DNA of 64,000 nt from Acetobacter estunensis. Its GTDB lineage: Bacteria; Pseudomonadota; Alphaproteobacteria; Acetobacterales; Acetobacteraceae. Positions within the stretch are counted from its first letter, which is position 1, and each line of letters opens with the position of its first letter. The notes beneath the pieces were generated by a model. It was given only the letters and a program-made list of their open reading frames with translations, searched no databases and was not told where the DNA came from. Both the position numbers and the translations under genes were made by a program. Shown here piece by piece: positions 432-58,352 of the stretch. Where the stretch lies: contig NZ_WOTH01000001.1 of NCBI RefSeq assembly GCF_011516945.1, positions 186,001-250,000 of the forward strand. Direction: 5' to 3'.

Positions 432-1889
432 GTGCGTTTGCGCCCCCCTGACTTTTCTTCTCTGTATCTCTCCCGTTTTCTTGTTCCCGCCCTGACGAAA
501 TGGTGGATGTGCCGTCGTGGGAGCGTGATGGTGGTCGCCGCACTGTCTGCGCTTCCCGTAATGCTCGGGGTCGCGGCGGCGGTGGATCTGCGCACGGTGG
601 TCAATACCCGCAGCAAATTGCAATCGCTGGCAGATGCCGCCTCTTTGCAGGCGGCGAAGCAGGCCAACAACAGTCTGGCATCAGGCAGCAGCACGACCAC
701 AGACGCCGCGTTGGCCGTCGCCCGTACGACGGCTCAGTCAATGGTTACGGCCAATGCACAGATCAGTGGCCTTTCTTCCGTTCCATCGGTGACTGTCAGC
801 TACACGCCCCAGACAAGTTATTCGGGCAGCGTCACCGTCGCTCTGAGCCAGACGCCACAGTTGTTCTTTTCTGGACTGTTGCCTGCAGGCAATAAGACCG
901 TCTCCGTTCAGTCAACGGCCACCATGGCGCAGGGCAATTCCTATATTCAGGTGTTGTTTCTTGTGGATATTTCCAATTCGATGGGAATTGGCGGCACACC
1001 TTCGGACATCCAGCAATTGGAGAACGGTCCGGGTCAATGCGCCTTTGCCTGTCACGATCCACATGGATACGACGCCATCAGTAATAACTGCGTTCTATCG
1101 AGTTCTGGCCAGTGGCAGGGATCGGGCTGGTATAGTGTCTGGCGTCCTCCCTGCGACATGCGGACCGTGGCAAAGGCATCGGGGATCAGCCTGAAAATCG
1201 ATTATGTCAGTCAGTCCTTGCAGGCGTTCGTTTCTCAGCTTGTCCAATATGCTCAGGATGACCGTAATCACATTACGGTTGGGATCGATACGTTTGGCAC
1301 TGTATTCTCCCGTGTGGTGCTCCCGACCACGGACCTTTCCCAGGCCACGAGCGCTGCAGCCAATGTGGATATCGAAGACGCCACGCCTTTTGCCAATCAG
1401 TATAACAATCCCAACCGGTCTCCCTCGGATTGGGCGGATTACAATGGCGGTTACACGAAAACACAGGCGGCTCTGCAACAGGTAGCCACCGATCTTCAGA
1501 ATGTTGGGGATGGATCCTCATCCTCCAGCATGAAAACCTATATCATCTTCATTTCGGACGGGGCCGAGGAACTCTATTCGGCCAGTGGTAAATGGCATAC
1601 GGCTGTGGACGTGAATTACGGCGCAGCCTGCACAGCACTGAAGAACAAAGGCGTGCGCCTCTTTTCTGTTCTGGTTCCCTATTATCCCATTCCCGGTAAC
1701 ACGCTTTATGACGCGCTGGTGGCACCGTTCGATGGAACGGGCGAAGGCAGCATGCAGTACACCATGCAGACCTGTGCTTCTGCCAGCACCGATTTCATTC
1801 AGGCCGATGACGGCCCCGCCATCAAGCAGGCCCTCTCGTCCGTGTTCGACACGATCATTGCGGACAGCGCCCTTCACCTGACGCACTGA
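432..1889 (+). CDS. TadG-like pilus-associated protein with von Willebrand A domain
   Basis: The N-terminus carries the RRGSV motif followed by a hydrophobic segment ending in AAAVDL (roughly residues 27-52). This is the signature of TadE/TadG-like pseudopilin-type proteins that anchor in the inner membrane and face the periplasm. From about residue 175 a von Willebrand A domain begins with VLFLVDISNSMG, containing the DxSxS metal-binding motif, and continues to a second acidic strand (IIFISDGAEE, near residue 370). The family belongs to Flp/Tad pilus systems, but no other tad gene is visible here. The first start is a GTG at 432; an in-frame ATG at 507, right before RRGSV, is also possible. 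No strong ribosome site separates them. Confidence 0.75.
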   Translation: MRLRPPDFSSLYLSRFLVPALTKWWMCRRGSVMVVAALSALPVMLGVAAAVDLRTVVNTRSKLQSLADAASLQAAKQANNSLASGSSTTTDAALAVARTTAQSMVTANAQISGLSSVPSVTVSYTPQTSYSGSVTVALSQTPQLFFSGLLPAGNKTVSVQSTATMAQGNSYIQVLFLVDISNSMGIGGTPSDIQQLENGPGQCAFACHDPHGYDAISNNCVLSSSGQWQGSGWYSVWRPPCDMRTVAKASGISLKIDYVSQSLQAFVSQLVQYAQDDRNHITVGIDTFGTVFSRVVLPTTDLSQATSAAANVDIEDATPFANQYNNPNRSPSDWADYNGGYTKTQAALQQVATDLQNVGDGSSSSSMKTYIIFISDGAEELYSASGKWHTAVDVNYGAACTALKNKGVRLFSVLVPYYPIPGNTLYDALVAPFDGTGEGSMQYTMQTCASASTDFIQADDGPAIKQALSSVFDTIIADSALHLTH

Positions 1890-1947
1890 GGGCACAGACG
1901 GGTCAGGTGAAGAAGCGCGAACACTCCGTGGACTGGGGCCTGTCTCG

Positions 1948-4113
1948 CTAAAGCGGCAGCGTTTCCAGACGCTCAAGGGCTGAGGCGGTTCCCAACGCAG
2001 CCGCTTTTTCCTTGGGCGTCAGTTTGCGTTCCGCCTCGGTGAGCGAGCGCGCTTCGTCCACTTTCAGGACGCCGACAAGCTGGTCCGGGTCAATCGGGTC
2101 CCCCGGTTTGCGAGGCGGTGGCAGCATGGCGCGGTGGGCGGCCAGCAACGTGGGATCGGAGCGCAGCGCTGCCATGGCTTCTTCCGGCAGATCCGACCCG
2201 GGTGCGGCGATAGCCTGAGCCGCTTCCACCAGAACTTCGGGAGGATGCGTTTCTTCGGGGACCAGCAGCAGTCCTGCGCGACGGAAAGCCTGTCCCACGT
2301 CGCGACTTCCGGTAATGGCCGCCAGTGGAATGGCCAGCACCAACCCGATCAGCACTGGCGTCATCCACAGAAACAGCGAGAACGACACGGCCCATGCACA
2401 GGCGCCGAGGATTACCCCGAAGAGGGTGTAGCGCCAGTATCCGCGCACGATGGTGCTCAGCGGGATGCCGCCGTCATCGCGTCGCTGGGCATTCCAGCCC
2501 GAATCCTGTCCGCTGAGGATCGAGATGACGCCGCTTGTCTGGATCAACATCGCAATCGGCGCGATCAGACCGCCGATGAGGGTTTCCACCAGCACGGAGG
2601 CCGCAGTGCGGATCATGCCGCCGCAGCCCTTGAGGGAGGCGCGATCGAACAGCAGGGCGATATAGGCGAACAGTTTGGGGGCAAGCAGGATCGCCATCGT
2701 GGCGATGAACACGAATTTCGCGCGCACGGGATCGACCTGCGGCCAGTGCGGATAAAGCGTCTTGGTGTCCCCGAAATATTCCGGCCGCACGAAGTGCGCC
2801 TGGAGCGAGATCAGGATGCCCACCAGCAGAAAGATCAGCCACAGGGGCGATGTGAGATAGGCCGAGATGCCCACGATCATGTGCATCCGACTGACCCAGC
2901 TCAGCCCTTTGGTGGGCAGCACCTTGTAGTGCTGGAGATTGCCCTGACACCAGCGGCGGTCACGGATCGCCACATCGGTGAGGGAGGGGGGGCTTTCCTC
3001 GTATGAACCCGACAGGGCAGGAACCATGTGAATGGCCCAGCCGCCGCGTCGCATCAGCGCGGCCTCCACAAAGTCGTGGCTGAGGATATGGCCGCCGAAA
3101 GGCTTGCGGCCCGGAAGCGCCGGAAGCCCCGCCTGTTCGGCGAAGGCGGCGGTACGGATGACGGCGTTGTGGCCCCAGTAATTGCTGCTGGCCCCATGCC
3201 ACCATGCAATACCATGGGCGATCAGCGGCCCATACACACGTCCTGCGAACTGCTGCATACGGGCAAACAGCGTCGTGCCGCCCGTGATGACCGGCAATGT
3301 CTGGATCAGCCCCACGCCGGGATTGCGTTCCATGGCAGCAGTAATGCGCACCAGCGTGCGGCCATCCATCACGGAGTCCGCGTCCAGCGTGACCATCAGC
3401 GGATAGGTCGCGCCGAAGCGACGGACCCATTCGCCGATGTTGCCGGCCTTGCGTTCCGTGTTCTTGGGGCGGCGACGATAGAAGATGTGCGCCGCATCGT
3501 TCGTGTCGTGGCGCAGTTTGAGGAACGCGGCTTCTTCCGCCACCCAGACATCGGGGTTGGTGGTGTCGGAAAGAATGAAGATATCGAACCGATCCGCCTG
3601 TCCCGTCTCACGCAGGCTGTCGTGGATCGCGCGCAATCCCGCCATAACCCGGTGCGGGTCTTCGTTGTAGGTGGGCATCAGAAGGGCGGTGCGGGTGTTC
3701 AGGGACGGCAGGGGGCCATCCTTTGTGATGCCAAGGCCGAGGCCGCCCCCGGTGAGAAGCGACCAGAATCCGCCCAGCGCGGAGGTGAAAGACAGCGCGA
3801 TCCAGAAGAAGAGCAGGACGAACAGCACTTCCATGATGACGCCCAGCACGGATGCGCCGTTGGCGTCGAGCACGAGATGCGTCTGCCACGCGCCATAGGC
3901 CGTGAGCGCCAGCGCTGGGCCGATGACGGCAAAGCGGCGGAGCGCGATCAGCTTCGGCTCGGTGGATGGCGTGGCGTCACGTCCATGCCGATCGGGTGCC
4001 GCGTGCAGATCCTGCACGTCCATGCGCAGGGGGGCATCGGGCGGCAGGGCGCGGAAAACGCCAGTCGCCGCCTGCGGAGGAACGGAGGTCACGGTGTCCA
4101 ACGATACATCCAT
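1948..4113 (-). CDS. mdoH: Glucans biosynthesis glucosyltransferase H (OpgH/MdoH)
   Basis: Inner-membrane GT2 enzyme that makes the beta-1,2 backbone of osmoregulated periplasmic glucans from UDP-glucose. At 721 residues it is somewhat shorter than the E. coli protein (about 850). The cytoplasmic domain shows LLMPTYNEDPHRV, the acidic motifs SDTTNPD and DADSVM, and the RRWCQGN acceptor motif. Hydrophobic segments lie on both sides of that domain and near residues 410-590. The start overlaps the end of opgG by 25 bases, so the two are one operon read from the minus strand. The short C-terminal tail has no obvious extra domain. The gene converges with the TadG-like gene, 58 bases away. Confidence 0.95.
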   Translation of the reverse strand: MDVSLDTVTSVPPQAATGVFRALPPDAPLRMDVQDLHAAPDRHGRDATPSTEPKLIALRRFAVIGPALALTAYGAWQTHLVLDANGASVLGVIMEVLFVLLFFWIALSFTSALGGFWSLLTGGGLGLGITKDGPLPSLNTRTALLMPTYNEDPHRVMAGLRAIHDSLRETGQADRFDIFILSDTTNPDVWVAEEAAFLKLRHDTNDAAHIFYRRRPKNTERKAGNIGEWVRRFGATYPLMVTLDADSVMDGRTLVRITAAMERNPGVGLIQTLPVITGGTTLFARMQQFAGRVYGPLIAHGIAWWHGASSNYWGHNAVIRTAAFAEQAGLPALPGRKPFGGHILSHDFVEAALMRRGGWAIHMVPALSGSYEESPPSLTDVAIRDRRWCQGNLQHYKVLPTKGLSWVSRMHMIVGISAYLTSPLWLIFLLVGILISLQAHFVRPEYFGDTKTLYPHWPQVDPVRAKFVFIATMAILLAPKLFAYIALLFDRASLKGCGGMIRTAASVLVETLIGGLIAPIAMLIQTSGVISILSGQDSGWNAQRRDDGGIPLSTIVRGYWRYTLFGVILGACAWAVSFSLFLWMTPVLIGLVLAIPLAAITGSRDVGQAFRRAGLLLVPEETHPPEVLVEAAQAIAAPGSDLPEEAMAALRSDPTLLAAHRAMLPPPRKPGDPIDPDQLVGVLKVDEARSLTEAERKLTPKEKAAALGTASALERLETLPL

Positions 4114-30043: not shown

Positions 30044-30418
30044 ATGGAGCTTGCACGATTCTGGCGCGTGGGCGGTGCCTGGGCAGCGGCGACCGGCGTG
30101 GCGATGGGTGCCGTGGCCGCGCATCTGCCGTCCGAGCGTTTCGGTCTGCCTGAGGGCCGCACGATCGTGCAGGAAGCCGTGCAGATGCAGATGTGGCATG
30201 CGCTGGCGCTTCTCGCGCTGGGAGTGTCGGTGCGCCGTTCCTCTCGGCTGACGGCGCTGGCCGGCTGCGGACTGTGGTGCGGCATGGTGATCTTCTGTCT
30301 GGCTCTCTATGTCACGGCTTTCTCCGGCCATCATCTTGGGCCCGTTGCCCCCACCGGTGGTTCGATGCTGATCGCTTCGTGGACGTTGCTTGGCGTGGCG
30401 TTTCTGCGTCATGACTGA
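30044..30418 (+). CDS. DUF423 family membrane protein
   Basis: A 124-residue protein with four hydrophobic segments and the DUF423 features GVAMGAVAAHLP, a central MWHALALLALG and the C-terminal APTGGSMLIASWTLLGVAF. The function is unknown. ATG at 30044 is chosen because AGGAGAGG lies 6 bases before it. The 3' end overlaps the start of the RlmM-like gene by 8 bases, so the two are co-translated; DUF423 genes are often found beside rlmM-like genes. Confidence 0.88.
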   Translation: MELARFWRVGGAWAAATGVAMGAVAAHLPSERFGLPEGRTIVQEAVQMQMWHALALLALGVSVRRSSRLTALAGCGLWCGMVIFCLALYVTAFSGHHLGPVAPTGGSMLIASWTLLGVAFLRHD

Positions 30419-31346
30419 ATCGCTAATTCGCAGTGTCTACGTGGCTCCTTCCGGATTTGAGGAGGTGTTGGGCGCGGAACTGGAACGGCTGGGCACACCA
30501 CCGGAAAGATGGTGGGGACGGCTGGCCTTGTGCGCGCTCCCTCCGGTGGCGAGCGTCTGGGCGCTGGATGTGTGGACGGCGCCGGAGGTTCAGGTCATTG
30601 CTTCCATCGGGGAGGCGGCGCGCCTGCTGAAAAGCCGGCAGCGGAACTGGTCGGATGTGCCGGTGGAGTTTTTCCGGCGGTCCTCGCTCATCAAGGACAA
30701 GCTGCCTCCCGTGAAGGCGGCTCCATTGGTCTTTCCACAGATGCCGCCCACCAGTCCTTTGGGTGGGTGGACATTGCTGGCTCCGGACCGTCTGCTGTTT
30801 TCCCAGACCAAAACCAGTCCTTTTCCGATGGGCGAACCACGTTTCGTGGAAGATCGGGAAGGCCCGCCGTCTCGGGCGTATCTCAAACTTTGGGAAGCCT
30901 GCACGCGCATCGGACGCTGGCCGGTTGCGGGAGAGCGTTGTCTGGACATGGGGGCGACGCCGGGTGGCTGGACGTGGGCGATTGCCCGACTGGGCGCGCA
31001 GGTGATGGCGGTGGACCGTGCGGTTCTTGCGCCGCAGGTGGCCATGATGCCGGGCGTTACGTTTCGACAGGAGAGCGCCTTTGGCCTTGATCCTGTGAAA
31101 GAAGACCGTGTGGACTGGCTGTTTTCAGATGTGATCGCTTATCCGGATCGGCTTCTCACTCTGGCGCGGCGCTGGATCGAAGCCGGAAAGACAGCGCGTA
31201 TTGTCATGAGCGTGAAATTTCAGGGTGAGACGGATTTTGCGATCATGGATGCGTTCGCTGCGATACCGGGCGGACGGCTGGTTCATCTGTTTCACAACAA
31301 GCACGAAGTGACGTTCTTTTGGAGCGAAGACGGAACATTCTCCTGA
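30411..31346 (+). CDS. RlmM-like rRNA 2'-O-methyltransferase
   Basis: A 311-residue FtsJ-fold methyltransferase resembling RlmM, which methylates C2498 of 23S rRNA. The N-terminus (to about residue 100) is a THUMP-like RNA-binding part. The Rossmann domain has RCLDMGATPGGWTWAIARLG (SAM loop), VMAVDRAVL, WLFSDVIAYPDRL with the catalytic Asp, and MSVKFQG with the catalytic Lys; the ending FHNKHEVTFFW gives His and Glu. It overlaps the DUF423 gene by 8 bases. Confidence 0.88.
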   Translation: MTESLIRSVYVAPSGFEEVLGAELERLGTPPERWWGRLALCALPPVASVWALDVWTAPEVQVIASIGEAARLLKSRQRNWSDVPVEFFRRSSLIKDKLPPVKAAPLVFPQMPPTSPLGGWTLLAPDRLLFSQTKTSPFPMGEPRFVEDREGPPSRAYLKLWEACTRIGRWPVAGERCLDMGATPGGWTWAIARLGAQVMAVDRAVLAPQVAMMPGVTFRQESAFGLDPVKEDRVDWLFSDVIAYPDRLLTLARRWIEAGKTARIVMSVKFQGETDFAIMDAFAAIPGGRLVHLFHNKHEVTFFWSEDGTFS

Positions 31347-31429
31347 CCGCATCTGAGTGTTGCACTCGTGGGTTGTGACAGAAAGAAGACGACATCACCG
31401 GGTTTTTCCCGCTCCAAGGAGGAATCGTG

Positions 31430-31948
31430 ATGCGTCTGAAGAATCTTTCCCTTGCCGTCCTATGTGCCATCTCCACGGCGCTGCCGTGTTCTCTCGGCCT
31501 TGCCCATACGGTGACGGCAACACCACAGGTCGGAGAGGCACCTGTGCGTCCTGTTGTGGTCCCCTATCCGGCAGCCGAACTGGCTCCCGCCGCCGTCGCT
31601 GCGGCGCTGACACGCGCAAAGACGAGCGGCAAGCCAGTGCTGCTGGATTTTGGCGGCAACTGGGCCCCCGATTGCTGGGCGCTCTCGGGCGTGTTGGCCA
31701 CGCCGGCGGTGGCGGCGTGGGTGGCGCAGAATTATGAGGTGGCGGTTGTGAACGTGTCGCGGTTCATGACCAATATGAGCATCGCAAAAGGATATGGTGT
31801 GACGGTCTCGGTCGTTCCCACGGTTCTGATCATCTCACCTTCCGGCAAGCTGTTGAACGGGGACGGCGTGGTGGCTTTGGCGCATGCCCGGCAGATGACG
31901 CCGCAGGCCGTGGTCGATCAGCTGGCCGCATGGGCAAAACTGGACTGA
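31430..31948 (+). CDS. Thioredoxin-fold periplasmic protein with a single active-site cysteine
   Basis: A 172-residue protein: signal peptide (to about ALAHT, residue 25), then a thioredoxin fold with KPVLLDFGGNWAPDCWALSG, VAVVNVSRF, and the cis-Pro region VSVVPTVLIISPSGKLL. The expected WCxxC is WAPDC, so the first (nucleophilic) Cys is Ala. It therefore cannot work as a normal disulfide oxidoreductase; it might bind a thiol, a metal or a protein instead. Start at 31430, 7 bases after AAGGAGG. Converges with sodB across a strong hairpin. Confidence 0.82.
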   Translation: MRLKNLSLAVLCAISTALPCSLGLAHTVTATPQVGEAPVRPVVVPYPAAELAPAAVAAALTRAKTSGKPVLLDFGGNWAPDCWALSGVLATPAVAAWVAQNYEVAVVNVSRFMTNMSIAKGYGVTVSVVPTVLIISPSGKLLNGDGVVALAHARQMTPQAVVDQLAAWAKLD

Positions 31949-33601: not shown

Positions 33602-36600
33602 TCAGCCCCGGCTGCGGGCCTCATGATGCATGTCGAGCCATGGATGACGTGCCTTTATATAGGTCACGACGTTGGCTTTGTGTGTGTGTGTCTCCGTGAC
33701 GCTGTTGGTCATGGACTCTCCATGTACGCGGTATTCCGCCACAGGCTCGGAGACATGCACGCCCTTGAGGCCCAGTTCCGCCAGCGTGCACCACAGATCG
33801 TAATCCTCCCATCCCATGGCGTCGCGCTTCACGTAATAACCACCGGCAGCGGACCACGCCCATTTTGCGACCAGCGCCATGGCGTCGATGTAGTTGCCGT
33901 TGCGAAGCTGGAGCGGACGGCTGGGGATATTGCCCATCAGATCGTGCGCTGCTCCGAACTGACGCAGAGTGGGATAGGCGTAAGCGGTCAAGGGATCGCA
34001 GGCGGCAAGAAGTTTCTCGCAGGCATCGGCGCGGAGGCGGTTATCGGCATCCAGCGAGAGGAAATACGGTGTCTCACTGGCGGAAACGCCGATGTTGCGC
34101 GCGCCCCCGAGACCCACATTGGCCAGAGGCGCGAGCACGAGAAGCCGGTTGAAGCGGGCAGCGTTTTGCTGGGCCCAGTGGGTGATGAGGGCTACGGAGT
34201 CGTCGGTCGAGGCGTCATCGACGATAATCAGGTCGAGTTTCTGCACGCTTTGGCTTCGGACCGATTCGAGCGCATCGAGAATGACATCGTGATAATTGTG
34301 AGACGTGATGATGACGCTTACATCCGCCGCTTCCAGGGCGTCATGTGCGAAGAGCGTCTCATACTCCGGAACTTCCGGCACGCCACGGCCCTGATAGCGA
34401 CCGCGGGCAATGAGGGTCTCGCTCGCTCTGGCTGTCGCGGCGTCATTGCAGAATGACATGATGATGCTTTCGAACAGCAGGGCCTGCCGCTGAGGACCGA
34501 ACGTCCACAGCACCTGATTGAGAGCGTTGCGGGCAAGGCTGCGACGCAAGGACGGATCGGTGACAAGACGGGTCAGGGCGTCTTCCCATTGTGTGGGAGT
34601 TTCGGCAAGGAAGCCGGTCACGCCATCGGTGACGCAGTCACGATAAGGCGCTGTCGGGGAAACCACGGACGGCACACCTGCGAGGGCGGCTTCGAGATAT
34701 TTGATTTCGCTCTTGGCCTCACAGAACACGTTGTCGAGTTCCAAGGGAGCGATGGAAATATCGAAGCGTGCGAATTCTTCGGGCAGACGTTCGAGGGGCA
34801 CCATATCGCGCCATTCGATCTGATCGGCCACGGGAAGGAGGGCTGGAAATTCGTCCATCAGCAGAACCGGCCGCTTGTTGCCGGTTTCGTGGAAAAGCAC
34901 GAGACGCACCTCGGAGTGCTTTTGCATCAGGCGCGCCAGAACCTCGGCTACGAGCGCAAAGTCACGCTGATGGGTCCGGGTGCCGGATGCGTATCCGATG
35001 CGAATGAGGCCGTCGCCGGGAACGGAGGCGAGGATGCGCGCGGCCATGCGGCTGCGGCGTAGGCAGGCCGCGTCATAGATATTGGGTAATGTGAACGACT
35101 GCCGGGCGATGCGGCGCATTTCGGTCGCCATGAAATCGGTGGTGGCGAAACAGGCGTCGGCCCGCTCCATCGTTGCGCGCATGTTTTGGAAAGTGATGTG
35201 GACGATGGATTCGGTTGCGCAGTCCACTGTCCGGATGCCGTCGATGATTGCGATACTGGCGAGTGCCGGGATGAAAACCAGATCATCCGTATCGAAGATG
35301 ACGGTTGTTCCCTTTTCCTTGCTCAGCCGGATGAGGATGGCCACATGCGGGCTGTATTCCACCCGCCACAGCACGATGACATCGGCCCATTCCACATCGG
35401 CCGGCCCGACATCGGCACAGGCCAGCACACGGGTAAAGTGTCCGACAAGCGCACAGGCGGCGGCATTGCGCGTGCAGCGGTACAGGGTGCCGGGAGTGGC
35501 GGGTTCGCCGCTGACAAAGAGAACATTACGCCTGAGAGCGGAAACCGGAAGCGGCGACGCGGGGTTGTGCGTGCCAGCGACGGCGCTTTCGATTTCCGGA
35601 AGGGCGGGAAGTTCCAATGGGGCGGGGACGGTGGGAATATGTGGCGAAAAATTCGGGTGGCGCAGCGTGCGTAAAAGGCCACGAAACAGGCCGGAGCGGG
35701 CCTGTATGGCGCTTTGCAGGGCCTGAATCTCCGTCTGCAATGTAGCAAGACGGCTGTTTTGTTCCTCGATGAGTGTGCGGGCCTGCTGCATCCATGTGGG
35801 ATCGACCGTGGTGGGGGCGACCGCCTGGGATTCCTCAGGGGGTTCGCTGGGTTGCTGGTCGATTTCTGCTGCGGAGGCGGCGGCTTGGGACAGGCGTTCC
35901 CGTGTTTCCAGCAGCGCCAGCCGGGTCTGGAGGAGATCGTGGCGCGTTGCGTCCAGAGAATCTTTCTGATGCAGGCTTTCCGCATCAAACGTGCTCTGCC
36001 GGACGGCACCGGCCCATGCCGACCCGAGACGGCTGAGGCGTATCCGCAGGCGGGCAAGCTGCGTGGAGGAGGTGCGTGCCTCGAAAAGAGGGTTCAGGCC
36101 GCACGGGATAGCACCCAGCGCCACGATTCCAGCACCGCCGGTATCCGGGAAGAGGCAGTGGGGATGTGTCGCGGCAAGTGCGTTCCACACGGCGGCTCCG
36201 GTGTCCGTCTCCGTACCATTAAGGAAGAGGAGGGCGTCAGGAGCGAGAGAGGGACGAAGGGTGGTGAGCGTCTCTGCCGCGCGTTTCAGGCGTGTAAGAT
36301 CGAGCACCGCAATATCGAGTGGGGAGCCGGTGCGTGCAGGCGCTTCGGAGGCGTTCAGGCTCTGCGTGCGGGTGTCGAAGGCCTGCAGGATCAGAAAGGA
36401 CCGGACGTAATCGGCAATGGCCGGGGGTACTCCGACAAGGGCGAGAGAATGGGGCCGCGTACTTATAAGTATGCCGAGAAGAAGCGGCATGTGGGCCGCA
36501 GTATCGGGCGGCACATCTCTGAGAGCCGGGGGCGCGAAAAAAACGTCCAGTTCCGGGGATGAGAGCAGGCTGAAGATGGAAACGGGCAGGTCGGACATGT

Positions 36601-36607
36601 CGCTCAT
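33602..36607 (-). CDS. Very large multi-domain glycosyltransferase (GT4-like + GT2)
   Basis: 1001 residues, cytoplasmic. Residues 1-190 are of unknown fold; about 195-320 hold a coiled-coil-prone stretch. From about 355 to 700 comes a GT-B domain: VLFVSGEPATPGTLYRC, FDTDDLVF, IGYASGTRTHQRDF, and a donor-side motif SEIKYLEAALAGVPSVVSPT. From about 745 a GT2 domain follows with VSVIITSHNYHDVI, VDDASTDDS, LDADNRLRAD (DxD) and MGWEDYDLW. Such proteins assemble surface polysaccharide or glycosylate surface proteins. The GT-B part is related to the first one in the gene at 38367. It diverges from the beta-roll gene. Confidence 0.88.
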   Translation of the reverse strand: MSDMSDLPVSIFSLLSSPELDVFFAPPALRDVPPDTAAHMPLLLGILISTRPHSLALVGVPPAIADYVRSFLILQAFDTRTQSLNASEAPARTGSPLDIAVLDLTRLKRAAETLTTLRPSLAPDALLFLNGTETDTGAAVWNALAATHPHCLFPDTGGAGIVALGAIPCGLNPLFEARTSSTQLARLRIRLSRLGSAWAGAVRQSTFDAESLHQKDSLDATRHDLLQTRLALLETRERLSQAAASAAEIDQQPSEPPEESQAVAPTTVDPTWMQQARTLIEEQNSRLATLQTEIQALQSAIQARSGLFRGLLRTLRHPNFSPHIPTVPAPLELPALPEIESAVAGTHNPASPLPVSALRRNVLFVSGEPATPGTLYRCTRNAAACALVGHFTRVLACADVGPADVEWADVIVLWRVEYSPHVAILIRLSKEKGTTVIFDTDDLVFIPALASIAIIDGIRTVDCATESIVHITFQNMRATMERADACFATTDFMATEMRRIARQSFTLPNIYDAACLRRSRMAARILASVPGDGLIRIGYASGTRTHQRDFALVAEVLARLMQKHSEVRLVLFHETGNKRPVLLMDEFPALLPVADQIEWRDMVPLERLPEEFARFDISIAPLELDNVFCEAKSEIKYLEAALAGVPSVVSPTAPYRDCVTDGVTGFLAETPTQWEDALTRLVTDPSLRRSLARNALNQVLWTFGPQRQALLFESIIMSFCNDAATARASETLIARGRYQGRGVPEVPEYETLFAHDALEAADVSVIITSHNYHDVILDALESVRSQSVQKLDLIIVDDASTDDSVALITHWAQQNAARFNRLLVLAPLANVGLGGARNIGVSASETPYFLSLDADNRLRADACEKLLAACDPLTAYAYPTLRQFGAAHDLMGNIPSRPLQLRNGNYIDAMALVAKWAWSAAGGYYVKRDAMGWEDYDLWCTLAELGLKGVHVSEPVAEYRVHGESMTNSVTETHTHKANVVTYIKARHPWLDMHHEARSRG

Positions 36608-36881
36608 ATAGCAGGGGACGATCTGCTGTGGTTTGTCTGCGCTCGTGACTTCGACGACAAGAGGGAATGGAAAGCTAAAGGTTAACCGAATGGGCGATAG
36701 ACAAAGTATTTGTTAAAAAAACGCAGGAAACTGCGATTCGCAGTGTATTTTTTTCGAGCCGCTAGCCTTGTTTTCTGTTGCGTGTGTCGGAGGTTTCAAC
36801 GTAGAAAGGCCATGGAAAAATGTCTGCCCGTGTGTGATGCTGCGACTGACCATGCTGGGTTACAAAGCAAGGGACTGAATA
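36608..36881. promoter_or_regulatory. Divergent upstream region of the beta-roll gene, with hairpin and T-run
   Basis: AT-rich compared with the coding neighbours. At 36730-36754 a 6 bp stem (ACTGCG/CGCAGT, loop ATT) is followed by GTATTTTTTTT, which looks like a terminator or leader attenuator on the plus strand, 130 bases before the beta-roll start. With no gene upstream on this strand, it would only make sense in the 5' leader. Promoters for both divergent genes are expected here but not located with confidence. Confidence 0.45.
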
Positions 36882-38282
36882 ATGCCTATTATTACCGTTC
36901 AGGGCGCGTCCTCGGGTTCACATGTTGTCGTTACCGTTGATGGTGCCGGCAGCGGCACGCTCGCGGGTCTTGTCTCGTCGTTCAGCAATACGCTGGCCAG
37001 CGGCATTGCCGGTGGTTCGATCAGCGGCCAGAACCTGACGCCGGGTTCGACCGAGTTTGCGTCCAACGCTTCGGGTTATGGCGTCATCACGGCGGCAGGA
37101 TCCTATCAGGTTTCCGGAGATGTCGGCGCGATCGTGTTCGGCGGTCTGCCGGGCACCAACCAGATTCCTAGCGCGCATGTTCAGATTGATGCCAGCAAGG
37201 GTACGGCCTCTTTCGTGAGCGTTGAGGGCGGCACCACGCAGGGCGTGCAGTTCCAGGCCGGTTCGTCCAACGGTGTCTTTGTGGCTGGCACGGGCAACAA
37301 CAGCTTCCTTGGCGATCAGCTTGCGGGTGGCGGCAACTGGTCGATCTATGCTGGTTCCGGCAACGATACGGTTATTGCGGGCACGGGTAACAGCACGATC
37401 AACGCTGGTACGGGCAATAACTACATCAGCATCAGTCAGGGCACGAACGTCGTCGATTCGTACGGCCAGGACACCATCTTCGGTGGTGACTGCAACCCGG
37501 ATCAGACTGTCAACCTGTACGGTGGCAGCTCTTTCGTTACGGTTGGCAAGGATTCTCAGGTCAGCGATCTGTCCGGTGGCAACAATGCCATCACTGTTGG
37601 CGGTGGCTCGACGGTTCGTGGTGGCGCAAACGACTCGATCAACCTGAATGGTGGCAGCTCCACGATCCTTGGTGGGTCTTCGGACACCATTTCGGCCAGT
37701 GGCGACGCGCTGATCGCAAACTCCGACATTGCCAATGTGAGCGTTTCCGGTTCCCTCACCTTTATCGGTGGCACGGGCCAGAGCACGATCACGGCGGCTT
37801 CCAGCACGATCTTCGGTGCGAGCGGTCTGGATGCGATCGTCAATGGCACCAGCAACAGCGCCGAAACACTGTTCGTGGCCAATGCAGGCAACGAGACGCT
37901 CGACGGTTCCAACTCCGTTTACGGCATTCACGCTTTCGGTAACGTTGTGGGCACGTCTGGCACGCAGACCTTCATCGGTGGCACAGGCTCCGATACGCTG
38001 GTTGCAGGTGTGGGTGACGCCACGATGACAGGTGGTTCCGGTGACAAGAACTACTTTGCATTCCGTGATGGAATTGCGGGTGGCGACTACACCATTACCG
38101 ACTTTGGTTCCGCTGCTGGCAATGTTGTCGGCCTGCTCAACTATACGCAGTCCGATCTGACGAATGCGCTGAACAACGCGACGACGTCTGGCAACAACAC
38201 CACCATCAAGCTGTCTGACAACACGACCATTACGTTCGACAATGTCACCAGCCTCAACTCGAACGACTTCCAGATCTGGTAA
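36882..38282 (+). CDS. Beta-roll repeat surface protein, likely type I secretion substrate
   Basis: 466 residues, very rich in Gly, Ser, Thr and Asn, with only one Cys. There is no Sec signal. From about residue 125 to 400 short degenerate repeats run through the protein, such as AGSGNDTVIAGTGNSTINAG and FIGGTGSDTLVAG, which resemble RTX/hedgehog-type beta-rolls but with few full GGxGxD calcium sites. The end (TITDFGSAAGN, then TTIKLSDNTTITFDNV, NDFQIW) matches the C-terminal pattern of RTX substrates exported by ABC-type secretion. Ribosome site AAGGGA precedes the ATG. Flanked by giant glycosyltransferases and followed by a strong terminator. An S-layer or adhesin role is inferred. Confidence 0.78.
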   Translation: MPIITVQGASSGSHVVVTVDGAGSGTLAGLVSSFSNTLASGIAGGSISGQNLTPGSTEFASNASGYGVITAAGSYQVSGDVGAIVFGGLPGTNQIPSAHVQIDASKGTASFVSVEGGTTQGVQFQAGSSNGVFVAGTGNNSFLGDQLAGGGNWSIYAGSGNDTVIAGTGNSTINAGTGNNYISISQGTNVVDSYGQDTIFGGDCNPDQTVNLYGGSSFVTVGKDSQVSDLSGGNNAITVGGGSTVRGGANDSINLNGGSSTILGGSSDTISASGDALIANSDIANVSVSGSLTFIGGTGQSTITAASSTIFGASGLDAIVNGTSNSAETLFVANAGNETLDGSNSVYGIHAFGNVVGTSGTQTFIGGTGSDTLVAGVGDATMTGGSGDKNYFAFRDGIAGGDYTITDFGSAAGNVVGLLNYTQSDLTNALNNATTSGNNTTIKLSDNTTITFDNVTSLNSNDFQIW

Positions 38283-38306
38283 GATCGGCAGTACGTTTCG
38301 TAAGAA

Positions 38307-38333
38307 ACCGGGCTTCGGCCCGGTTTTTTTTTG
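38307..38333 (+). terminator. Rho-independent terminator after the beta-roll gene
   Basis: AACCGGGC, loop TTCG, GCCCGGTT, then nine T residues (38325-38333). A textbook strong terminator, so the downstream glycosyltransferase at 38367 should need its own promoter or read-through. Confidence 0.95.
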
Positions 38334-38366
38334 CCGTAAGATGATTGATGGCAAGCAAACAGGGGA

Positions 38367-41123
38367 ATGGACACGTCTGTGACAGATCGTCAGCTCGAAG
38401 CATTGGAAAAGCGTCTGGAGAATGCCGAGTCGCTTCTGAAAACGTACAAGGCGACTTCCGCCTTGCATGGAATGAGAGCGGATGGACTGGAATGGGAGGC
38501 GGGTCGGCTTCGGCGTACTCTGTTTGGTTTGGATCGCGGGCCAGTAGTGAGGGGGCTGCGGACAGCATGGCTGTTGGCGCATGGGGAGCTGCCGTCCGGC
38601 GTTCCGTTACGGCTGATCGCTCGCAGAGCGCGGGAAATTGCTGAGCAGGACGGCATCCGGATTCTGTGGGGGAAAGTGAGGCAGCGTGTCGGCGGTCGTG
38701 TGGCGCGGGAATGGGAAAAGCGTCGGACGGCCCGCTCTTCCACACTCGTCTCACCTCCTGTCGAGGACGGAGAAGCGGTCTATCGTCGCTCTGTTTCCTC
38801 GGAACGGCTACGTGATTTCACGCCCCGGGTTCTGATCGTTGCGGAGCTCTCCATTCCGCAGTGCGCGAAATACCGTGTCTGGCAGCGCAAGGAAGAACTG
38901 GAACGCCTTGGTTGGCAGGTAGACGTCATGAATTGGCATGACGTCCAGAGTGTTCTTTCCGGCTTGCAGGTGTGTACGGACGTCATTTTCTACCGCACGC
39001 CGGCCGTGCCAGACGTCCGCAAGATGATCGACGAAGCAAGGCGACTTGGTCTTTCCCCTTGGTGGGAAGTGGATGATCTGATCTTCGATGTCGAACTTTA
39101 CCGGCAGAACAGCAATCTTTTATCCCTGCCGCCCGTAGAACAGGCCGAATTATTGAAGGGGGCGGCTCTCTACAGAGAATGTCTGGAATTGTGTGGACGT
39201 GGGATCGCCTCAACCCGGGTTCTCGGTGAGGCCATGAGCCGGATCGGTATCGGCGAAGTGGGTGTTATCGAGAATGCACTCGATGATCAGACACTGGCCG
39301 CTGCCGAGACGGCGCTGACTGGGCTGACCCAAAAAAACCAGAAGACGACGGACGATATCGTCATTGTCTATGGGTCGGGTACGCGAACCCATGACGGAGA
39401 TTTTCTTTGCTGCGCCGAAGGTCTGGCCGCCGCCATGGAGGCGGAGCCACGCCTGCGTTTGCGGATTGTGGGCGAACTGACGGTGCCGCCCGTGTTGCTA
39501 CGCTTTGGCAGTCGCGTCGAAACCTTGGAAGGGCGGGATTATCCCACCTACATGGCCATGCTGGCGGCTGCCGATCTGACGGTCACACCGCTGGAACTCA
39601 CGATTTTCAACGACGCAAAAAGCAACATCAAGTTTCTTGAAGCCTCCATCCTGCGCGTTCCGTCAGTCTGTTCACCCTGCGATGCGTTTCGGGGCGTGAT
39701 TGTGGAAGGACAGAACGGTTTTCTCGCTGAAGGCACGGAGGCTTGGCGGGATGCTGTGCTGGCACTGGCGCGCGATCCGGTGTTGCGTCGGGATGTCGGC
39801 GAATCCGCACGTCGCGACGTCCTTGCGCATTATCGTCCGGACGTTATCGCCCGCGAACAGGTCGCTCGTTATTTCCCTTTGCCTGCTCCACAAGCGCGAC
39901 AAGGTTTACGGGTTCTGTCGGTAAACGTGTTTTTCGAACCACGTTCTTTTGGCGGTGCGACGCTGGTGGCCGAAGAAATGGCGACCCGGCTTTCTGCCAT
40001 GGGGTGTGATGTCGGCGTGTTCACCTCCGGTCCTTCTTTTCCAGAGCGCGCAGGCGCTCCCATACGGCATGAAATACGTGGCATGCCCGTTATGGCTTTC
40101 CCGCTGCCATTGGACGTGGATCCTGTTGGCGCACTGGATAATCCGCGCTGCAGCACCCAGTTCGCAGCATGGTTGGATGCCTTTCGGCCGGATGTCGTGC
40201 ACTTCCATTCCGTGCAGGGGCTGGGTGTCGGGATCTTGCAGGTCTGTGCGGAGAGGGGAATTCCGCATGTGATAACACTGCATGATGCGTGGTGGCTGTG
40301 TGAGCGTCAGTTCATGGTGAAAGCCGATGGACGCTATTGTTTCCAGCGACATATCGATCTGACGGCGTGTCAGAGATGTGTGCCCGGAGCGCATCATCTT
40401 CAACTGCGTCAGGATATGATGCAGGGGGCGTTGTACAGGGCGCAGCTTCTTCTGTCTCCAAGTGCCTCCCATCGCGCGTTGTATCTGGAAAATGGTATAG
40501 AGCCAGAACGCATACAGGTGAATCGCAATGGCTTCTCATGGCCTGTGAAGGCACGGACCCCACGAAAGGCTGGGAAGCCTCTCCGTTTCGGTTTTGTCAG
40601 TGGAACGGCGGAGGTCAAGGGGTTCTCACTGATCCGCAAGGCGTTCGAGGCGCTTGAAAGAAACGACTGGGAACTGGTGCTTATCGACAACACGCTCAAT
40701 CTCGGATTTTCCTCGGTCAACGTGTCGGGATGGAGAGTGAAGGGGGAGGTTGTGATCCGTCCGGCCTATACGGACGAAACACGGGATGATTTCTTTAATG
40801 CGATTGATGTCCTGCTGTTTCCGTCTCAATGGATGGAGAGTTATGGCCTGACCGTGCGTGAGGCTCTTTCGCGGAATGTATGGGTGATTGCCACGGCGCC
40901 GGGTGGACAGGCGGAGGATATCGAGGACGGCGTGAACGGGACGCTGATTCCGCTGGACGGTCGCTTTGAGAGTTTGCAGACAGCTATTGAAGGTGTTCTG
41001 ACTAACAAGGAGCGGTTTTCCTCCTATGTGAACCCGCATAGGGAGGAATTGCCGACTTTTGAAAGTCAGGCTGCGGAACTCAAAGCCTATCTGGAATCGG
41101 TTATACGGAAGCAGGAGGCCTGA
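38367..41123 (+). CDS. Very large glycosyltransferase with two GT-B domains
   Basis: 918 residues. Residues 5-60 are coiled-coil-like. The first GT-B domain (about 150-500) shows VLIVAELSIPQCAKYRVWQ, WEVDDLIFD, YGSGTRTHDGDF and SNIKFLEASILRVPSVCSP, clearly related to the GT-B part of the protein at 33602. The second GT4 domain (about 510-910) shows RSFGGATLVAEEMATRL, HFHSVQGLG, ITLHDAWWLCERQFM and the EX7E motif in MESYGLTVREAL. Two transferases in one chain suggest two sequential sugar additions. An ATP-grasp gene follows 45 bases downstream, likely in one operon. Confidence 0.88.
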   Translation: MDTSVTDRQLEALEKRLENAESLLKTYKATSALHGMRADGLEWEAGRLRRTLFGLDRGPVVRGLRTAWLLAHGELPSGVPLRLIARRAREIAEQDGIRILWGKVRQRVGGRVAREWEKRRTARSSTLVSPPVEDGEAVYRRSVSSERLRDFTPRVLIVAELSIPQCAKYRVWQRKEELERLGWQVDVMNWHDVQSVLSGLQVCTDVIFYRTPAVPDVRKMIDEARRLGLSPWWEVDDLIFDVELYRQNSNLLSLPPVEQAELLKGAALYRECLELCGRGIASTRVLGEAMSRIGIGEVGVIENALDDQTLAAAETALTGLTQKNQKTTDDIVIVYGSGTRTHDGDFLCCAEGLAAAMEAEPRLRLRIVGELTVPPVLLRFGSRVETLEGRDYPTYMAMLAAADLTVTPLELTIFNDAKSNIKFLEASILRVPSVCSPCDAFRGVIVEGQNGFLAEGTEAWRDAVLALARDPVLRRDVGESARRDVLAHYRPDVIAREQVARYFPLPAPQARQGLRVLSVNVFFEPRSFGGATLVAEEMATRLSAMGCDVGVFTSGPSFPERAGAPIRHEIRGMPVMAFPLPLDVDPVGALDNPRCSTQFAAWLDAFRPDVVHFHSVQGLGVGILQVCAERGIPHVITLHDAWWLCERQFMVKADGRYCFQRHIDLTACQRCVPGAHHLQLRQDMMQGALYRAQLLLSPSASHRALYLENGIEPERIQVNRNGFSWPVKARTPRKAGKPLRFGFVSGTAEVKGFSLIRKAFEALERNDWELVLIDNTLNLGFSSVNVSGWRVKGEVVIRPAYTDETRDDFFNAIDVLLFPSQWMESYGLTVREALSRNVWVIATAPGGQAEDIEDGVNGTLIPLDGRFESLQTAIEGVLTNKERFSSYVNPHREELPTFESQAAELKAYLESVIRKQEA

Positions 41124-41168
41124 CGGTCTTTACCTGACTTTAGAGAAGGGCGCGTTAGGCATGGCAAC

Positions 41169-42323
41169 ATGCTTGACCTCGCCGAATTCGCTAATGATCC
41201 CTCTGTCGCTCGTTCCGTTCTGACCGAACGTCTGGGCAGAGCCTCTGATCCCTCGGAGCGTGCCCAGATCCATTACCGGCTATGGGAGATGTGTCAGGTG
41301 TGCGGAGAGCCGGCTGCGGCCCTGCGTCATCTTGATGAGGCCATGCAACTCGACCCGATGCAGAGGCCGGATTCTGTCTCTTCCGATGCATGCCGCCGCA
41401 TTGTGGTCATGAATGCTCCCGGCACATTTCAGGCGAATGCGCCACTTGCGTTTCTTCTTGATGATACCACCCAGATTTTCACGCTGTGGGTGTTGGGAGC
41501 CCCTGCTGCACGGGGAGTTCTCGTTGCAGCCGTCAGGGCAGTGCAGGCCGAATGCGCGTTTATTGCCATTGCGGAGGACGAACGGCAGGCACAGGCCCTC
41601 GCGGAAGCGGAGATCATCGCGCACGAGGCTGGATTACCTGTTCTCAATGGGAATGATCGTATTATGCAGGTGGGGCGTGCCCGCGTTCCGCAACTTCTGG
41701 CTGGTATTGCGGATGTTCTAGTGCCGCAATGTACGGTGATACGATCCTTTGGTGACAAGATACCGTCTTTTCCTGTTCTGATAAGACCGCTTGCCTCGCA
41801 TGCTGGAGACGGACTGGCACGGATCGATACGAAGGCGGAACTGGAGACCTATATTCGTTCAGCGTCTCCGGGCACGTCTTTCTATGTTACGAAATTCATT
41901 GATTTTATCAGTTCCGATGGTTTGTACCGCAAATATCGAGTCGTGTTTGTTGAAGGGGAACCTTTTCCGGTTCATTTGGCCATCCATGATGGCTGGGCGA
42001 TCTGGTATTACAACGCGAAGATGGAAAATTTTCCTCAGAGACGCGCCGAAGAAGCGCGTTTCATGACAGATATGGCGGGGTATTTTCCTTTTGGTGTTCT
42101 GGAAGGGCTAAAGGCGATCGCTCGTGCCGTACAGCTTGATTATTTCGGGCTGGACTTTGGTGTGTTGCCGGATGGAACATTGGTTGTGTTTGAAGTTGAG
42201 ACCGGCATGATCGTACATGATCGGGATCCGGCGGATATCTATCCTTATAAAAATGCTGCCATTGCCCGTATTCGGCATGCTGTTGAAGCCATGATCGATC
42301 AGAAGTCCCATGCGCCCTCATGA
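41169..42323 (+). CDS. ATP-grasp domain protein with short TPR-like N-terminus
   Basis: 384 residues. Residues 20-60 look like one or two TPR helices (QIHYRLWEMCQVCGEPAAAL, RHLDEAMQLDP). The C-terminal ATP-grasp part (about 170-370) shows FPVLIRPLASHAGDGLARID, FYVTKFIDFISSDGLYRKYR and LDYFGLDFGVLPDGTLVVFE. The usual E-x-N metal motif reads EVET, with Glu in the Asn position. ATP-grasp enzymes ligate a carboxylate to an amine or thiol; a peptide- or sugar-modifying role next to surface glycosyltransferases is inference. Confidence 0.75.
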   Translation: MLDLAEFANDPSVARSVLTERLGRASDPSERAQIHYRLWEMCQVCGEPAAALRHLDEAMQLDPMQRPDSVSSDACRRIVVMNAPGTFQANAPLAFLLDDTTQIFTLWVLGAPAARGVLVAAVRAVQAECAFIAIAEDERQAQALAEAEIIAHEAGLPVLNGNDRIMQVGRARVPQLLAGIADVLVPQCTVIRSFGDKIPSFPVLIRPLASHAGDGLARIDTKAELETYIRSASPGTSFYVTKFIDFISSDGLYRKYRVVFVEGEPFPVHLAIHDGWAIWYYNAKMENFPQRRAEEARFMTDMAGYFPFGVLEGLKAIARAVQLDYFGLDFGVLPDGTLVVFEVETGMIVHDRDPADIYPYKNAAIARIRHAVEAMIDQKSHAPS

Positions 42324-56766: not shown

Positions 56767-57246
56767 ATGGCGGAAGAAGAGGAAACGGAAGGCGCTGTGG
56801 CGCCTCCGCCCAAAAAGAAAAAGAAGCTGGTGCTGATCGCAGGCGCTGCGGTGGCTGTGGCTCTTCTGGGTGGGGGTGGCTGGTTTTATCGCCAGCACTC
56901 GGCCGCCAAACCGGAAAAAACGCCGCCTCAGGCAGTGGTCCAGCAGGAGCCTTTTCTCGTCGATATTCCGACGGTCATCTCGAATCTGGACAGTTCCACG
57001 GGGCGGCCGGTTTTCGTGAAGATTTCCGCCAAGCTACAGGTGCGTGGCACGACCCGCGATGCGGTGGACGCGTTGATGCCCGAAATCCAGAATGTCTTTC
57101 AGACCTATCTGCACGAGAGCACCCAGAGCGATCTGGGTGGCAACGGCATCTATCGCCTTCGTGAAGCCCTTCTGGCGCGTCTTGTCGTGCAACTGGCCCC
57201 CATTGAAGTACGAGATCTTCTGTTCACGGAATTCCTGATCCAATGA
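56767..57246 (+). CDS. fliL: Flagellar basal-body-associated protein FliL
   Basis: 159 residues. A short acidic N-terminus, a basic patch (PPPKKKKKLV), one membrane helix (residues 20-42) and a periplasmic stomatin-like FliL domain with FLVDIPTVISNLDSSTGRPV and the C-terminal VRDLLFTEFLIQ. FliL surrounds the stator units and supports motor torque. The stop overlaps fliM (ATGA). Confidence 0.9.
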   Translation: MAEEEETEGAVAPPPKKKKKLVLIAGAAVAVALLGGGGWFYRQHSAAKPEKTPPQAVVQQEPFLVDIPTVISNLDSSTGRPVFVKISAKLQVRGTTRDAVDALMPEIQNVFQTYLHESTQSDLGGNGIYRLREALLARLVVQLAPIEVRDLLFTEFLIQ

Positions 57247-58352
57247 GCGATAGGCAGGACGCAGTGAATTCATCCATCCCACGTCCCGCTCCCACGGCGT
57301 CCCTGAACGATCGGACGCCGTTTCCGGACGGTGCTGCGGGCGGCATGGACGGCGAAGATGATCGTCTTCTGGATCAGGCCGAAATCGACAGCCTGATGGG
57401 GCATGCCTATGTGCCCGATGAGGCCGAGGGCAAGGCCAGCGGGCTGGAGCGTATCATCGGCTCCGGTGTGGTGACGTATGAGCGGTTTCCCATGCTGGAA
57501 ATCGTCTTCGACCGACTCATGCGCATTGTTTCCACGTCGTTGCGCAGCTTCACGAACGACAACGTGGATGTGACGCTCGATGGCATCAGTTCCATGCGGT
57601 TCGGAGACTATCTGAACTCGGTACCCCCTTCCTGCGTCTTCGCGGTTTTCAAGGCCGAAGAGTGGGAAAATTACGGCCTGATGGTGATCGATTCCGCACT
57701 GACCTATTCAATGGTCGATGTCCTTCTTGGCGGTGCCCGGAACCCTCGCACGCTCAACGTGGAAGGACGGGCGCACACGACCATCGAGCGCGCTTTGATC
57801 GAAAAGATGGTGCGGTTGGTCCTTGCGGATCTGACCACGGGCTTCGATCCGATCTGTGCAGTCAATTTCCATTTCGAGCGACTGGAAATCAGCTCCCGTT
57901 TCGCCACGATCTGTCGTTCCTCCAATGCGGTTTTTCTAGCGCGCATGAGGGTGGAGATGGATGATCGCGGCGGCCATATCGATGTGCTGCTGCCCTATGC
58001 CACGCTCGAACCCGTGCGGGATCTTCTGGTTCAGCAGTTCATGGGGGAGAAATTCGGACGCGATTCGATCTGGGAGACGAACCTGACCGAGCATCTTCAG
58101 GATACCGATGTGGTTGTCGAGGTCGTGCTTGCTGAACAGAAGATGTCGTTTCTGTCGGTGTCGGACCTCAAGCCGGGGATGGTTCTGCCGTTCGAACAGG
58201 AAGTCGGACAACCGGTAATGCTGCGATGTGGTTCCGTACCGCTTTTCAGCGGCAAGCTTGGGCGCAAGAAGGAACAGATGGCCGTACGTGTCGAGGAGGA
58301 TTTCTTGACAGCGCGCGAGAGCCTCGATTCCCCTGATACATTGTATAACTGA
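57243..58352 (+). CDS. fliM: Flagellar motor switch protein FliM
   Basis: 369 residues. The CheY-P binding motif LDQAEIDSLMG lies at about residue 34-44, after an N-terminal extension longer than usual. The middle domain (YERFPMLEIVFDRLMRIVST, DYLNSVPPSCVFAVFKAEEW) and the C-terminal SpoA domain (LKPGMVLPFEQEVGQPVMLR) follow. Part of the C-ring that sets rotation direction. Coupled to fliL. Confidence 0.95.
   Translation: MSDRQDAVNSSIPRPAPTASLNDRTPFPDGAAGGMDGEDDRLLDQAEIDSLMGHAYVPDEAEGKASGLERIIGSGVVTYERFPMLEIVFDRLMRIVSTSLRSFTNDNVDVTLDGISSMRFGDYLNSVPPSCVFAVFKAEEWENYGLMVIDSALTYSMVDVLLGGARNPRTLNVEGRAHTTIERALIEKMVRLVLADLTTGFDPICAVNFHFERLEISSRFATICRSSNAVFLARMRVEMDDRGGHIDVLLPYATLEPVRDLLVQQFMGEKFGRDSIWETNLTEHLQDTDVVVEVVLAEQKMSFLSVSDLKPGMVLPFEQEVGQPVMLRCGSVPLFSGKLGRKKEQMAVRVEEDFLTARESLDSPDTLYN

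Follow-up and report, generated by a model that had tools for sequence, protein, structure and literature searches.

We analysed a 64,000-nucleotide stretch of Acetobacter estunensis DNA (the window; positions 186,001 to 250,000 of contig NZ_WOTH01000001.1, here C1, in a 3.45-Mb assembly). It encodes a 466-residue, RTX-like beta-roll protein (RPT; 36882..38282, plus strand) that stands between two large glycosyltransferases, and the association of RPT with these enzymes is real and old. The reading that we favour, with our confidence evenly balanced for and against it, is that RPT is an RTX protein to which dedicated cytoplasmic enzymes attach O-linked glycans before its type I export. On one side of RPT lies GT1 (33602..36607, minus strand), a 1001-residue, two-domain glycosyltransferase encoded divergently, with 274 bp between the two starts. 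On the other side, 84 bp from RPT, is GT2 (38367..41123, plus strand), a 918-residue glycosyltransferase with two GT4-type regions, followed after 45 bp by a gene for a 384-residue ATP-grasp protein (41169..42323, plus strand). The names GT1 and GT2 denote the glycosyltransferases of the locus, and "GT2-type" and "GT4-type" denote domain families. The four open reading frames have the positions and lengths given in a preliminary description of this DNA, and their products share 95-98% identity with those of the nearest named relative found, likewise A. estunensis.

Repeats and fold both mark RPT as an RTX protein. Its composition (84 Gly, 62 Ser, 51 Thr, 41 Asn and just 6 Lys plus Arg among 466 residues) agrees with its earlier portrayal as a Gly/Ser/Thr/Asn-rich repeat protein, and so do two matches to the RTX nonapeptide repeats of PF00353 (26.1 bits, cut-off 23), which within this genome are confined to the RPT locus; a single GGxGxD is present and the calcium motifs are degenerate. 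The preliminary description had called for a structure prediction, and the model obtained is a beta-roll with a C-terminal capping region, the fold of RTX proteins. While Foldseek returned nothing below an E-value of 0.001 with this model, VIA-align, a second look at the same Foldseek matches, superposed residues ~265-466 (37674..38279, plus strand) on the C-terminal RTX parts of serralysins, PML lipase, CyaA RTX block V and RsaA; TibA was also among the structural matches. Inspection by eye revealed no Sec signal, as had been noted before, and no catalytic domain was recognised in the protein. The type I style end that had been proposed is borne out as far as the C-terminal RTX alignment goes, and the C-terminal half of RPT probably holds the signal for a type I secretion system. 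Together with the exporter described below, this makes type I export of RPT well supported.

Conservation was assessed in 150 Acetobacteraceae genomes, with the same set searched with each protein. RPT has matches in 113 genomes, many of them weak and to other RTX proteins; orthologues of GT2 (E-value of 1e-110 or better) are present in 34 genomes and those of GT1 (better than 1e-150) in 46. Of the 34 GT2-bearing genomes, 27 have RPT no more than 1 kb away from GT2, among them the decayed G111 (counted by hand from match positions), and in 21 of these 27 GT1 is divergent on the other side of RPT; a GT1 orthologue is missing from the remaining six (G127, G020, G076, G007, G042 and G111). In G071 and G036 the triad contains two copies of RPT. 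The GT1-RPT-GT2 order recurs across other species and genera at protein identities of ~35-68%, and its recurrence, judged from these comparisons, is more than chance. Thus, of the expectation that the four genes are kept together in relatives, the part concerning GT1, RPT and GT2 holds and that concerning the ATP-grasp gene does not. GT2-like paralogues were also seen in G023, G044 and G002.

Pfam domains confirm the glycosyltransferase character assigned earlier to the two large proteins. GT1 has a GT4-type domain (~538-700) and a GT2-type domain (~762-967), with a DxD at 853 in the GT-A domain; its N-terminal third is variable, has no Pfam domain at a maximum E-value of 1 and, by eye, is possibly methyltransferase-like. 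The GT4-type regions of GT2 span ~355-496 and ~528-883, with an EX7E motif at 824 in the last GT-B domain. Another glycosyltransferase, resembling RgpF (rhamnan synthesis protein F, PF05045), is found convergent after GT2 or beside RPT in 20 of the 27 clustered loci; in the window and in locus L002 the interval from the ATP-grasp gene to TetR lacks it. The two such proteins that were tested score above the Pfam cut-off, though their matches cover just positions 26-199 of the 503 in the profile. Between RPT and GT2 lies an intrinsic terminator (38302..38329, plus strand; two 12-nt arms and a T run, -18.8 kcal/mol, z -3.5, with 0 of 200 shuffles as good), so that GT2 needs read-through or a promoter of its own; the strong terminator reported after the repeat gene is therefore real as a structure.

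The candidate exporter is encoded elsewhere on the contig. Two HlyD-type adaptors were found in the genome. One, at C1:135-139 kb, which puts it 47 kb beyond the window's edge and ~84 kb away from RPT, belongs to a HlyB-HlyD pair (HlyD: TIGR01843, 321.6 bits, cut-off 208.65; HlyB: best match TIGR01846, 537 bits, below the cut-off of 725.55); the other, on contig C12 (L124), goes with an NHLP bacteriocin-type ABC protein. HlyB-HlyD is thus the only RTX-type exporter found in this genome, and RPT probably uses it. The exporter operon (C1:~127000-139000, L123) continues downstream of HlyB-HlyD with genes for a Sel1-repeat protein, an 1148-residue protein with TPR, GT2-type and GT4-type regions (TPR-GT), a 391-residue protein whose ChW match is just over the cut-off, and a glycosyltransferase, GT4, which has a PF12000-type relative in G042. 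In Gluconacetobacter tumulisoli a single protein (P0300) combines TPR-GT with a ChW-type domain, which elsewhere is encoded by the gene that follows TPR-GT in the operon. The gene set hence reaches beyond the four genes of the preliminary description, both to the RgpF-type enzyme and to this distant operon with its glycosyltransferases.

A tblastn survey of 39 exporter loci (that of A. estunensis, those of G042 and G111, and 36 chosen by their HlyD) recovered HlyB, HlyD and Sel1 in all 39 (in pieces in G111; Sel1 weak in L169), TPR-GT in 36, GT4 in 36 and all five genes in 35. Four loci are incomplete: G108 carries L169 as an additional copy of the exporter, L193 and L194 run into contig ends, and G111 is decayed. 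TPR-GT itself was found in 4 of 114 genomes of the class (E-value of 1e-30 or better), two of them outside the Acetobacteraceae, and the stretches viewed in the latter two, of 20 kb and 10 kb, contain no HlyB/HlyD match. A close HlyD orthologue (E-value of 1e-138 or better, plus the broken one in G111) is present in 41 of the 150 genomes, and RPT (1e-16 or better) in 40 of these 41 vs. 4 of the other 109. These thresholds were set after the lists had been seen and the 41 genomes look like one clade, which the co-occurrence may largely follow. Seven genomes with RPT and without a GT1 or GT2 orthologue (G067, G055, G030, G118, G090, G135 and G104) have nevertheless kept the exporter operon and its glycosyltransferases. 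This suggests a core comprising the cargo, the exporter, TPR-GT and GT4, and an accessory layer of GT1, GT2, the RgpF-type enzyme and the ATP-grasp protein.

The cargo cluster and the exporter operon appear to have decayed together in G111, a 2.0-Mb genome whose same-genus sister, G042, has both intact. All eight set genes that could be aligned in G111 are broken (RPT, GT2, a DUF2142 neighbour, HlyB, HlyD, Sel1, TPR-GT and GT4), and the ninth, a small ChW-type gene, has no match. Among the other genes in the same two stretches (L158 and L159), 9 of 22 are broken (Fisher p = 0.004); one of the nine is cut by the end of the stretch, one just misses the length limit, and the gene set was named after the breaks had already been seen. 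Neighbouring genes also decay together. The pattern favours coupling of cargo cluster and exporter operon, as supporting, not decisive, evidence.

Several observations weigh against the favoured reading. The exporter operon is unlinked to RPT, and G064 has the operon with no RPT match. Seven genomes have GT2 without an adjoining RPT (G070, G072, G045, G012, G039, G008 and G001). In four of them (G070, G039, G001 and G045) GT1 and GT2 lie together with no RPT in the surrounding 20 kb, and G012 likewise has GT2 without RPT in the surrounding 20 kb, with GT1 on another contig; GT1 and GT2 may thus serve a different acceptor or produce free glycan. Conversely, G030 and G118 have shorter RPTs (284 and 363 residues) at the same TetR/ProC site without GT1 or GT2, and the 20 kb around RPT in G055 and G067 gave no GT1 or GT2 match. 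The excess of N-glycosylation sequons in RPT is weak and indecisive (16 vs. 9.7±2.6 in shuffles), the Ser plus Thr fraction in four RPTs without GT1/GT2 is just slightly reduced (0.212 vs. 0.237 in 23; p = 0.09, n = 4; the drop is not used as evidence), and the decay in G111 also hits unrelated neighbours such as metH. As to the remaining two of the seven genomes, G008 has GT1 and RPT on contigs other than that of GT2, and the contig of G072 breaks off within GT2, for which reason this genome was dropped as a case of GT1 and GT2 without RPT. A fusion of GT2 and GT1, raised by a single long open frame in G045, was rejected, as the two are consecutive genes on one strand in different frames. Divergent from the GT2-GT1 pair of G001 is a gene for a MsbA/HlyB-like ABC transporter (L138:4935-6773).

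The main rival explanation, which we regard as possible and rather less probable than not, is sustained by both kinds of separation: GT1, GT2, the RgpF-type enzyme and the exporter-linked glycosyltransferases would build a surface polysaccharide (a lipopolysaccharide side chain or a capsule), and RPT would be an S-layer-like or matrix protein that binds this polysaccharide outside the cell, much as RsaA binds the lipopolysaccharide of Caulobacter. Genes of a kind suited to such a pathway adjoin GT1 in two genomes, an NAD-epimerase gene in G059 (L140:7486-8451) and an acyltransferase gene in G089 (L142:7117-8223), which again counts against the favoured reading. Against a polysaccharide pathway, the neighbours scanned, part of the total, included none recognisable as a polymerase or flippase; two of the glycosyltransferases are encoded with a protein exporter; and RPT adjoins GT2 in most GT2-bearing genomes, as counted above.

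It is improbable, in our estimation, that the adjacency merely reflects a gene order inherited within one clade with no functional coupling. The unrelated neighbours TetR, ProC and YbjN are kept at the locus too, as such an explanation would have it. However, GT1 keeps company with RPT-like proteins in different gene neighbourhoods as well: one is encoded right next to it in G059 and G125, and another two genes away in G089, with no GT2 orthologue in any of the three; GT1 and GT2 remain neighbours in the four genomes with no RPT beside them; and the order is still seen at protein identities of ~35-56%. That GT1 and GT2 glycosylate flagellin or another protein, with RPT a mere neighbour, is very unlikely: large multi-domain glycosyltransferases are typical of flagellin glycosylation and FliM is encoded in the window (57243-58352), 15 kb downstream of the set, but the flagellin of this genome is on another contig (C14), and nine genomes with RPT beside GT2 have no flagellin match (G028, G103, G144, G007, G011, G036, G042, G107 and G148; G107 and G148 are included because the list of matching genomes does not name them), so that flagellin is not an obligate acceptor and its role as a general one is weakened.

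The protein encoded after GT2 had been called an ATP-grasp protein, and this identity stands despite the lack of any Pfam match: its model (pLDDT 93.2) has the fold of a Ddl/RimK-like ligase, with Foldseek E-values of ~1e-10 to Ddl and LysX and 5e-9 to RimK, and K255, R257 and E342 are invariant among 37 homologous sequences. The N-terminal helices look TPR-like, and some distant homologues have annotated TPR domains. While the gene directly follows GT2 in six of six Acetobacter loci (found with the ATP-grasp protein itself), homologues occur in 37 of the 150 genomes and lie beside GT2 only in the genome of the window. In the loci of 18 relatives (non-overlapping gene lists), even the most widely shared neighbour has homologues in at most 4 of the remaining 17, and with no constant neighbours the gene was rejected as a core member. 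It is, judging by this distribution, a lineage-specific add-on, at home only in the Acetobacter aceti/estunensis group. In G077 (L083) a homologue lies between homologues of two window genes, 30390-31346 and 31427-31948, 10 kb upstream in the window, whose products are presumably methyltransferase-like and thioredoxin-like. Further off, at 432-4113, the window encodes a TadE/G-like pilus protein followed by a 721-residue, convergent GT2-family glycosyltransferase.

If RPT is glycosylated before export, as we favour, it would be made as an RTX-like beta-roll protein destined for the cell surface or the extracellular space. The exporter-encoded TPR-GT and GT4 would start or extend a glycan on RPT in the cytoplasm, and the cargo-side GT1, GT2 and, in most relatives examined, the RgpF-type transferase would lengthen it further. 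In the A. aceti/estunensis group the ATP-grasp ligase perhaps decorates the glycan, for instance by adding an amino acid or a similar group, and the glycosylated RPT would then leave through the HlyB-HlyD system. RPT as the acceptor, the linkage, the order of steps, the part of the ligase and the eventual surface location are what we infer from gene content and models. Of the overall picture drawn earlier, the link between the glycosyltransferases and RPT and the type I export hold up, the four-gene set does not, and glycosylation of RPT by these enzymes keeps its standing as a proposal. With one RTX gene, one RTX-type exporter and few glycosyltransferases, the hypothesis could be tested by a small number of single-gene deletions.

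More tentatively, and with somewhat more doubt than conviction, we propose that acetic acid bacteria and their relatives share a family-wide type I glycoprotein pathway, in which an exporter operon bearing TPR-GT would serve one RTX cargo and interchangeable cargo-side glycosyltransferase modules would vary the coat. Acetic acid bacteria matter for vinegar, for cellulose and in insect guts, and to our knowledge their surface proteins have been little studied; RPT could, if the proposal is true, be an S-layer or adhesin glycoprotein of these organisms. The four-gene set had been put forward as not belonging to a described system, and in keeping with this we found no description of glycosylation coupled to type I secretion in acetic acid bacteria in the open-access full texts searched, with subscription papers and preprints outside the search.

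Among known systems, RPT itself is closest to the type I RTX proteins (serralysin, PML lipase, the RTX part of CyaA, RsaA), with which it shares PF00353, the beta-roll, the C-terminal superposition, a HlyB-HlyD exporter and the near absence of Lys and Arg; it differs in its few repeats, degenerate calcium motifs, the lack of a recognised catalytic domain and the glycosyltransferases alongside. The self-associating autotransporters TibA and AIDA-I are glycosylated as well, by TibC-type heptosyltransferases, which are another kind of transferase, and their export is of type V. In the serine-rich repeat protein (SRRP) systems of Gram-positive bacteria, the repeat protein is accompanied by GtfA/GtfB, further glycosyltransferases and SecA2. 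The set described here resembles these in combining a repeat-rich surface protein, several cytoplasmic glycosyltransferases and a dedicated exporter, and differs in its RTX-like beta-roll cargo, type I exporter, two-domain GT1 and GT2, and exporter unlinked to the cargo. We liken the set to the SRRP and TibA/TibC systems in its way of working and assign it to neither; the family-wide pathway, if true, would be to Gram-negative bacteria, with type I export, what the SRRP systems are to Gram-positive ones.

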